Source: an uncultured bacterium (GTDB lineage: Bacteria > Bacillota_I > Bacilli_A > RFN20 > CAG-826). Taken from it: a DNA stretch of 32,199 bases. Below the pieces are notes generated by a model that was not told where the DNA came from, did no database searches, and saw only the letters and a program-made list of their open reading frames with translations. The stretch lies in assembly GCA_949296775.1 (NCBI GenBank), contig CASFQA010000009.1, positions 1-32,199 of the forward strand, given 5' to 3'. Positions 3,797-5,600 of this stretch are shown here, in pieces (position 1 is the first letter of the stretch; every line of letters starts with the position of its first letter). Both the position numbers and the translations under genes were made by a program.

Positions 3797-3872
3797 GGGA
3801 CTTTAGCTCAGTTGGGAGAGCGCGTGCTTTGCAAGCATGAGGTCGTCGGTTCGAGCCCGATAAGTTCCACCA
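3797..3872 (+). tRNA. tRNA-Ala (anticodon TGC)
   Basis: The 76-base gene folds as a complete cloverleaf: acceptor GGGACTT pairs with AAGTTCC (one GU), anticodon loop CTTTGCAAG centred on TGC, T loop TTCGAGC, discriminator A and encoded CCA. It is the first tRNA of a unit that continues with tRNA-Met 6 bases later. Confidence 0.95.
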
Positions 3873-3878
3873 GAAAAT

Positions 3879-3955
3879 GGCTGTGTAGCCCAGTTGGTTA
3901 GAGCAACCGGCTCATACCCGGTATGTCGAGGGTTCGAGTCCCCCCACAGCCACCA
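3879..3955 (+). tRNA. tRNA-Met (anticodon CAT), elongator type
   Basis: Acceptor GGCTGTG pairs perfectly with CACAGCC, and the anticodon stem ACCGG/CCGGT encloses loop CTCATAC. The G1-C72 pair argues against an initiator tRNA. C38 and the absence of Ile acceptor determinants argue against the lysidine-modified Ile2 tRNA. CCA is encoded. Confidence 0.9.
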
Positions 3956-3965
3956 GAGGATAATG

Positions 3966-3990
3966 ATGCCCTTCGGGGCATTTTATTTTT
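3966..3990 (+). terminator. Rho-independent terminator after tRNA-Ala/tRNA-Met
   Basis: ATGCCC (3966-3971), a TTCG tetraloop and GGGCAT (3976-3981) are followed by TTTATTTTT. It closes the first tRNA unit. Confidence 0.85.
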
Positions 3991-4231: not shown

Positions 4232-4278
4232 TTTAACTTCCCTTCCGGATATGTATAATAGTCAAGCCGCTTTGCGGC
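4232..4278 (+). promoter_or_regulatory. tRNA operon promoter with 5' hairpin leader (Ile-Ser unit)
   Basis: TATAAT at 4254-4259 is preceded by a weak TTTAAC (4232-4237). Six bases downstream of the -10 box a GCCGC-TTT-GCGGC hairpin (4266-4278) opens the transcript, just before the tRNA-Ile acceptor stem. The module matches the one before tRNA-Ala. The 250 bases upstream (3991-4231) are AT-rich and hold no gene I can support. Confidence 0.65.
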
Positions 4279-4280
4279 CT

Positions 4281-4357
4281 GGTCCATTAGCTCAGCCGGT
4301 TAGAGCGAGCGCCTTATAAGCGCTAGGTCCGGTGTTCAAGCCACCGATGGACCACCA
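4281..4357 (+). tRNA. tRNA-Ile (anticodon TAT), reads AUA
   Basis: Acceptor GGTCCAT pairs with ATGGACC, and the anticodon stem AGCGC/GCGCT encloses loop CTTATAA. U33 and A37 fix the anticodon as TAT at 4315-4317. The known isoleucine determinants are present: C4-G69, U12-A23, C29-G41, A37, A38 and A73. Most bacteria read AUA with a CAU tRNA modified to lysidine by TilS; a UAU tRNA is rare. The T stem CGGTG/CACCG is perfect and CCA is encoded. Confidence 0.93.
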
Positions 4358-4361
4358 AGAC

Positions 4362-4440
4362 GGAGGCGTACCCAAGCGGTCTTGAAAACCGATAGTGGGG
4401 TTCCGCCCCAGCCAGAGTTCGAATCTCTGCGCCTCCGCCA
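4362..4440 (+). tRNA. tRNA-Ser (anticodon TGA) lacking its D arm
   Basis: The acceptor GGAGGCG/CGCCTCC, anticodon loop CTTGAAA (TGA), long variable arm TGGGG-TTCCG-CCCCA, T arm CAGAG-TTCGAAT-CTCTG, discriminator G and encoded CCA are all intact. Only 7 bases (TACCCAA) separate acceptor and anticodon stems, where bacterial tRNA-Ser has a full D arm. About 20 bases are missing. A slip between repeats like GCGGTCT would explain it. It may be a pseudo-tRNA, an assembly error or a real D-armless tRNA. UCA codons are used in neighbouring genes, so a working copy must exist somewhere. Confidence 0.8.
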
Positions 4441-4454
4441 TAAAAGAACAACAT

Positions 4455-4501
4455 GTCTGATACATTCTTAGTCGCTGACTAGGGGTGTGCAGACTTTTTT
4501 G
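4455..4501 (+). terminator. Terminator of the Ile-Ser tRNA unit
   Basis: An interrupted stem forms from GTCTG (4455-4459), TACA and TAGTC on the left with GACTA, TGTG and CAGAC (4490-4494) on the right, followed directly by a run of Ts. The right half also contains the first copy of the GGGTGTGCA repeat. Confidence 0.65.
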
Positions 4502-4685
4502 ATTTTAGGCTTAAATAGCCACTTTTTAAAATTAAGCCGTTGTAATAGTGGGAGCCAAATCTCTAAAATTCATCGAAAAACCATCATTTTTAAGGCTCAC
4601 TTTGAAACATCAGGTGTGCACTATTAAACGGCAACCCTTATTTTGCACACCCTTGCACACCCCTAAACACGGCAATTGCACACCC
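4483..4685. repeat. Five iteron-like copies of (T)TGCACACCC
   Basis: TTGCACACCC occurs at 4643-4652, 4653-4662 (in tandem) and 4676-4685. The inverse form occurs as GGGTGTGCA at 4483-4491 and GGTGTGCA at 4613-4620. Short repeats in both orientations next to a tRNA gene resemble integrase arm-type sites or replication iterons. The surrounding stretch 4502-4818 is AT-rich and holds no gene I can support. Confidence 0.5.
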
Positions 4686-4818
4686 TTATACTCTTACACG
4701 ACGCCCCTAGAAAGTGCGCATTTTATCGAAGTTTTTAATGTTTGCAATTGCTCTTTTGCTCTTTGGGATGTAAAAAGCCACCTAAGTATTATAAGCTAGA
4801 TGGAATTTAATCTTTTAT

Positions 4819-5067
4819 TTAATCTTCTTTACCTTCTTCTACAATTTTCCAATGACCATTTTTATCTGAGCCGACACGCACCAAGATGCCTTTAGATTTT
4901 AAAGAATTAATAATTGTTTGGACTGTTCGGCGTGATAAGTTTACTTTAGTAGTCATTTCATTTATCGTTACTTTACTATTTTCGTTTATTAGATTTAGGA
5001 TCTTCGCTTCGTTTACAGTGCAATTTACAGTGCAATTTACAGTGCAATCGTCCTTCGCATTAAATCC
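4819..5067 (-). pseudogene. C-terminal fragment of an AlbA_2-type (Schlafen-like) transcriptional regulator
   Basis: About 82 residues of a winged-helix tail can be read on the minus strand. They begin with three CTVN repeats, then KILNLINEN, NLSRRTVQTIINSLKSKG and VGSDKNGHWKIVEE before a TAA stop. This is the typical end of putative DNA-binding (AlbA_2 plus ATPase-C) proteins, whose full length is about 400-500 residues. Going upstream the frame hits a TGA just before a run of seven As, while the neighbouring frame carries KLKYVFTIPFEKK, so a frameshift probably sits at that A-run. The N-terminal domains are gone. Codon use is AT-rich compared with the flanking genes, which suggests transfer. 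Confidence 0.6.
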
Positions 5068-5590
5068 TTTTTTTCAAAAGGTATGGTAAAGACGTACTTG
5101 AGCTTCTCCTCCTTTGCGTACCTTCTGTTCATATACAGCCCTTTCTTTGTGCTCAGACTGTTCAAACTTTGGGTAACACCTCAAAATATCAAGCCGCGCC
5201 CAATCTCGAAAAGGCGATCGGGGTGTCGTGAGCAATTTGCCGTTCAACCATACGCATTTCTCCTAATCGAAGCGCATTTTCCTTTCTGCCCGTTGGTTCT
5301 AATCCGTTTTAGAGCCGAGAAGGCAGTTAGCGGTTTTCATGAATGGCGCATTCAGACGTTCAAGATTGCACCGCATTTCATCAAGACCATCTATTTTTTT
5401 GCCTTTGGCTTAATACCCGCGAATGCAAACTCTTGCCGAAGAAACCTCCTAATGCATTTTCCTTAGCCTCCACTTCCTTATTATCGGTTATGCCCTTGCA
5501 AATGCATTTAACGCCCATACGGATTGAATCGTAATATCCGTTGCTGATAGACGTCTTTATTGATTATCGTTGCTTTCGCCATAGACTCCG
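5068..5590 (-). pseudogene. Multiply frameshifted gene remnants
   Basis: Protein-like segments are scattered over the three minus-strand frames and broken by stops. In transcription order they include MAKATIINKDVYQQ, NGYYDSIRMGVKCICKG, KKIDGLDEMRCNLERLNA, ENALRLGEMRMVERQIAHD and DWARLDILRCYPKFEQSEHK. They look like one or two genes broken by several indels. I do not recognise the family. Plus-strand ORFs here are shadows. Together with the regulator tail and the short repeats it forms a decayed insertion downstream of tRNA-Ser. Confidence 0.4.
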
Positions 5591-5600
5591 GCGATTAAAG

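Follow-up and report, generated by a model that had tools for sequence, protein, structure and literature searches.

A clade of uncultured animal-gut Bacillota, made up of Candidatus Alloenteromonas and sister genera, very probably exchanged lysidine-dependent decoding of AUA in its common ancestor for direct decoding by a tRNA-Ile with a UAU anticodon. Isoleucyl-tRNA synthetase (IleRS) would have adapted to the new tRNA, while the lysidine-forming enzyme TilS has eroded, is kept by most members of the clade, and was deleted in one subclade. The gene that exemplifies this exchange lies in a window of 32,199 nucleotides, by which we mean the whole stretch of DNA that was analyzed; it is contig 9 of a 10-contig, 1.52-Mb assembly that is 95.9% complete. 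The genus was placed by its named relatives, and a literature search of partial coverage found no paper on AUA decoding in Candidatus Alloenteromonas.

The tRNA-Ile(UAU) gene and the tRNA set of the genome

The UAU gene sits in a short tRNA block of the window, which contains the following features.

3797-3872, + strand: tRNA-Ala(UGC), which opens a conserved Ala-Met-Ile-Ser tRNA block (ARAGORN; order common to relatives)
3879-3955, + strand: elongator tRNA-Met(CAU), one of two CAU tRNAs in the genome (ARAGORN)
3965-3982, + strand: intrinsic-terminator-like hairpin between Ala-Met and Ile-Ser (terminator scan)
4254-4259, + strand: -10-like TATAAT preceding the UAU tRNA, a putative promoter box (sequence)
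4281-4357, + strand: tRNA-Ile with anticodon UAU, the only AUA-cognate tRNA of the genome (ARAGORN, Rfam, genome tRNA set)
4362-4440, + strand: tRNA-Ser(UGA) without a D arm, directly 3' of the Ile gene as in relatives (comparison with relatives)

A preliminary description of this DNA had proposed a complete tRNA-Ile with a UAU anticodon and the main isoleucine identity bases, and both proposals were upheld. ARAGORN called a tRNA-Ile(tat) at 4281-4357, and the same positions match Rfam RF00005 with 66.7 bits and an E value of 1.3e-12, which speaks against a match by chance. As read from the letters, all of the listed identity bases are present (C4-G69, U12-A23, C29-G41, A37, A38, and A73), the anticodon loop is C-U-U-A-U-A-A, and the CCA end is encoded. 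The UAU tRNA is kept across species of the genus, and the two closest species have the identical sequence. In other species, too, the UAU genes are preceded by a box that resembles TATAAT or CATAAT; near 4254-4259 there is no -35 consensus, and a promoter-type scan did not list the box.

The tRNA set of the genome was assembled from RF00005 matches, each resolved by ARAGORN. Among its 47 tRNAs are one Ile(GAU), one Ile(UAU), and two with a CAU anticodon, namely the elongator Met in the window and the initiator (locus L040). The gene at 3879-3955 clusters by sequence with elongator Met (loop CTCATACC) and not with Ile2 (loop CTCATAACC), so that an Ile2(CAU) gene is absent from all 47 resolved tRNAs. 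The complete chromosome of a sister genus, OX437086.1 (1,061,998 bp), has 47 tRNAs and a tmRNA, including Ile(GAU), Ile(UAU), one elongator Met, and one initiator Met, and Ile2(CAU) is absent from this whole set as well. When the two sets are compared, Ser(UGA) is the only tRNA species of OX437086.1 that is not found intact in the present assembly, and it is therefore unlikely that an assembly gap hides Ile2. The AUA codon is in use, at 4.9 per 1,000 codons in the ORFs of the window and at 6.1 per 1,000 codons in OX437086.1, where it is found in 540 of 660 ORFs.

The preliminary description had regarded tilS together with an Ile2(CAU) tRNA as the sign of a merely additional UAU gene; the search that it proposed returned no Ile2(CAU) in this genome or in OX437086.1, which favors a replacement. 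The opposite reading, in which UAU is a redundant extra and a CAU/TilS system still works beside it, as it does in Lactobacillus plantarum, draws on the tilS ortholog that this genome still carries and on the redundancy known in lactic acid bacteria (Tomikawa 2018, as relayed in PMC9976931). Lactobacillus does resemble the clade in having a natural UAU tRNA-Ile in a member of the Bacillota, but there UAU is redundant with CAU and a working TilS, whereas in the clade it is the only AUA reader. Redundancy is already refuted for the sister chromosome OX437086.1, Ile2(CAU) is missing from the resolved tRNAs of this genome too, all scorable members of the clade have the altered IleRS, and the TilS motifs are eroded, all of which makes this reading extremely improbable. 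Judged by gene content, the UAU tRNA-Ile is a replacement for Ile2(CAU) and not an extra.

As for the origin of the gene, relatives have the order Ala(UGC)-Met(CAU)-Ile2(CAU)-Ser(UGA), and the order here is Ala-Met, the terminator-like hairpin, and Ile(UAU)-Ser(UGA); the UAU gene therefore occupies the Ile2 position. Moreover, UAU genes of deep sister lineages have the acceptor sequence GGACCAT, which is near that of Ile2 (GGACCCT) and unlike that of Ile1 (GGGCCTT). Pairwise identity suggests instead an origin from Ile1(GAU), because the UAU gene matches its own Ile1(GAU) at 58 of 77 positions and the Ile2 genes of relatives at 50 to 54 of 77, but this candidate is outweighed by synteny and by the acceptor stems of the deep sisters. 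The simplest account is thus likely a C34-to-U change of Ile2, which falls short of proof because the overall identity is nearer to Ile1.

The neighboring tRNA-Ser(UGA) gene (4362-4440, + strand) is unusual in its own right. It has lost 13 nucleotides (CTGAAGGGGTCGG, between CGG repeats) that make up the whole D arm, and the rest folds normally; the gene is intact in close relatives. Both ARAGORN and the RF00005 search missed it, and the latter found no other Ser(UGA) in this assembly, in which UCA is used at 3.1 per 1,000 codons. The loss may be a defect of the assembly or of the strain; otherwise, this would be a D-armless bacterial tRNA-Ser. Downstream, positions 4441 to 5600 have a GC content of 32 to 46%, compared with about 53% around them, and similarity to two relatives (G009 and G028) stops at the 3' end of the tRNA-Ser gene. 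This segment is a probable remnant of an element integrated at tRNA-Ser.

Distribution in the clade and the change in isoleucyl-tRNA synthetase

The UAU tRNA was seen in 23 of 31 genomes of the genus and in 9 of 13 sister genomes that have an eroded TilS; it was detected in none of 30 further genomes from the order. Among 395 genomes sampled across the class, it turned up in two genera, both belonging to this family, and nowhere else. No clade genome searched yielded Ile2(CAU), a tRNA that most of the genomes outside carry beside elongator Met. These surveys were strict pattern searches, and single absences in draft genomes carry little weight; almost every genome of the clade is a draft assembled from metagenomes, and the 8 of 31 genus genomes without a detected UAU tRNA are mostly incomplete. 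A separate observation concerns one family member (G032, 96% complete) that has Ile2(CAU) and an IleRS with Trp but no TilS match and no FtsH match. Because tilS and ftsH adjoin, a contig is probably missing from that assembly.

The tRNA exchange is paralleled by a change in the enzyme that would charge the new tRNA. The zinc motif of the IleRS anticodon-binding domain, C-x-R-C-W, reads C-x-R-C-R in 28/28 genomes of the genus and 10/10 sister genomes, and it retains its Trp in 34/34 scorable outgroup genomes. The changed residue aligns with W890 of the Staphylococcus aureus enzyme, whose structure was solved with tRNA (1FFY), at the anticodon-recognition site. In an IleRS tree of 72 rows, all of the Arg enzymes fall on one side of a single branch with a support of 100, and the phylogeny points to a single origin of the Trp-to-Arg change.

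It had been suggested beforehand that this IleRS might carry the change seen in Mycoplasma mobile, and Trp-to-Arg was indeed found at the expected site in all 38 scorable genomes. In 2013, Taniguchi et al. reportedly found that the same Trp-to-Arg change lets M. mobile IleRS charge a UAU tRNA. We take Arg865 of the M. mobile enzyme to correspond to the zinc-motif Trp that changed in the clade, the E. coli counterpart being W905. Published work also describes IleRS mutations that accompany the UAU tRNA in M. mobile (PMC4014445).

Erosion, retention, and loss of TilS

The genome encodes a 418-aa TilS ortholog that scores 119.7 bits against TIGR02432, for which the cut-off is 93.6. Its locus has a gene order, pth-mfd-tilS-ftsH, that is seen in the closest relative (L236) and in a canonical locus (L275). 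The structural model has a TilS fold (pLDDT 86), and its top Foldseek match is 3a2k (TilS-tRNA). By fold, profile score, and syntenic locus, the protein is TilS by descent. Nevertheless, its PP loop reads TYGPDS against the motif SGGxDS. The first Ser of that motif is retained in 2/25 genus and 3/18 sister sequences compared with 41/41 canonical ones, D-x-[ST]-N in 0/25, 11/18, and 41/41, respectively, and the Asn of RNxIR in 9/25 genus sequences. The erosion of TilS is therefore graded, and it lies mainly outside the ATP site. Because HxxDD, the Arg of AR..RY, and mostly also the PP-loop Asp-Ser are retained, the protein may still have some ATP-dependent activity.

Two other groups of sequences were noted in passing. 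A second PP-loop protein of this genome (L002:1006-2301, - strand) is TtcA-like with an extra C-terminal part. Family f5 (L075-L078 and L133) has low TilS scores of 112 to 147 bits and was considered as a further case, but it does not show the same erosion, since its motifs are largely canonical and its IleRS has Trp. Ile2-like CAU tRNAs whose D arms read AGAGT occurred among the loci examined, and this family has diverged in a different manner.

The tilS-like gene is under strong purifying selection: dN/dS is about 0.03 for the closest species and reaches 0.25 when wider pairs are compared, and full-length frames occur in 25 species of the genus. The C-terminal half is also more conserved in the clade than in canonical TilS: at matched N-terminal identity, its identity is 0.55 in the clade and 0.30 in canonical TilS. 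Of 206 genus pairs, 179 show higher conservation in this half than in the N-terminal one, versus 0 of 212 canonical pairs; the pairs share species and hence are not independent. The result was repeated with pairwise alignments, which excludes an alignment artefact. The preliminary description had held that this lineage has lost tilS or is in transition. Loss does not apply here, where an eroded but maintained ortholog is present, and is borne out in one subclade only; because the ortholog persists, "in transition" is the better wording for this genome, and dN/dS suggests repurposing in preference to plain decay.

In that subclade, mfd adjoins ftsH with no tilS between them in four genomes (G015, G019, G021, and G022), the end of mfd lying about 400 bp from the start of ftsH (loci L347, L350, L351, and L346, respectively). 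A fifth member (G006) has no TilS match either. The subclade keeps the Arg-IleRS, and three of its members (G006, G019, and G022) were seen to carry the UAU tRNA. UAU decoding therefore does not require the TilS-like protein.

What, then, might the retained protein do? Active-site erosion and the clean deletion in one subclade could mark it as a decaying relic that has no present function and is heading for loss, in line with the proposal for Mollicutes TadA and TilS that point mutations weaken an enzyme ahead of gene loss (PMC3711424). We consider a relic unlikely, given a dN/dS of 0.03 to 0.25, 25 species with full-length frames, and a C-terminal half more conserved than in working TilS. Alternatively, the UAU tRNA might be the target of the protein, and a modification at a site such as U34 would then prevent the misreading of AUG; members of its fold family modify position 34, and the protein retains the ATP-site HxxDD and most of the PP loop. 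Since G006, G019, and G022 lack the gene and yet keep the UAU tRNA and Arg-IleRS, we down-weight this role to very unlikely.

A regulatory role is also a candidate, given the tilS-ftsH adjacency that is conserved in both the clade and its canonical relatives. By analogy with Bacillus subtilis, where a TilS-HprT complex activates ftsH (PMC8152036), the TilS-like protein might be kept for moonlighting in ftsH expression, a noncatalytic task that a constrained C-terminal half would suit. The locus contains no hprT, however, and the subclade without tilS still has ftsH, which leaves this specific role conceivable but rather doubtful. On balance, we lean toward neofunctionalization of TilS after the tRNA change, in the broader sense of a conserved, C-terminal-driven, non-lysidine role, whether in RNA binding, ftsH regulation, or another modification.

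A proposed order of events and its counterparts in other bacteria

We propose that C34 of the Ile2(CAU) gene changed to U in the common ancestor, giving a tRNA-Ile(UAU) that would pair with AUA without lysidine. IleRS would have gained Trp-to-Arg in C-x-R-C-W and so would charge this tRNA with isoleucine. Direct UAU decoding combined with an Arg-IleRS would deprive TilS of its only known substrate; lysidine would presumably then be absent, and the lysidine-forming site of TilS would have eroded. Most members have retained TilS, on which purifying selection acts and whose C-terminal half has come under new constraint; a second role, other than lysidine formation, is the most likely reason. The deletion of tilS in one subclade would have come later.

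A UAU anticodon must also avoid AUG. As a first guess, drawn by analogy, the likeliest route may be that U34 is poorly modified or unmodified on a Bacillus-type ribosome. A B. subtilis UAU suppressor tRNA with unmodified U34 is said to bind AUG weakly (work by Kohrer in 2014). MnmE- and MnmG-like proteins were recognized in OX437086.1, by motif only, and these candidates leave room for modification of U34.

Several known systems resemble parts of this proposal. In B. subtilis, a tilS deletion was reportedly rescued by a UAU mutant of tRNA-Ile1 (Fabret in 2011 and Kohrer in 2014), so that a UAU tRNA reads AUA in a Bacillus-type cell. That suppressor arose in the laboratory from tRNA-Ile1(GAU), whereas the UAU gene of the clade is natural and probably derived from Ile2 in place. 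Another such system is M. mobile, which has tRNA-Ile(UAU) in place of Ile2(CAU) and a compensating IleRS change; tilS is absent there, whereas the clade, an independent gut Bacillota lineage of a genus and its sister genera, mostly retains an eroded tilS with intermediate stages visible. Replacement of the same kind is known in M. mobile and three hemoplasmas (PMC4014445), and for TadA and TilS in Mollicutes a stepwise loss has been proposed, in which the enzyme is weakened by point mutations first (PMC3711424). These cases share with the clade a compensated C34-to-U34 change, and weakening of the enzyme before its loss is the proposed path. In contrast to the Mollicutes model, a weakened TilS is directly seen in the clade, in dozens of species and under purifying selection.

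In almost all bacteria, TilS is considered essential. What looks new here is an independent clade of many species, a visible intermediate stage, and a TilS apparently selected for something else. The clade in which the whole AUA system has been rebuilt is broad, and its phylogeny is resolved; with outgroup, intermediate, and final stages all present, one can trace the anticodon, the synthetase identity residue, and what became of the modifying enzyme. The clade also independently repeats a synthetase change reported from M. mobile. It directs attention to the job of the retained TilS and to the avoidance of AUG by U34, and it makes the stepwise loss proposed for tRNA-modifying enzymes testable. 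If TilS has indeed acquired a new role, the clade would offer a naturally occurring example of an "essential" tRNA-modifying enzyme that survives its substrate.
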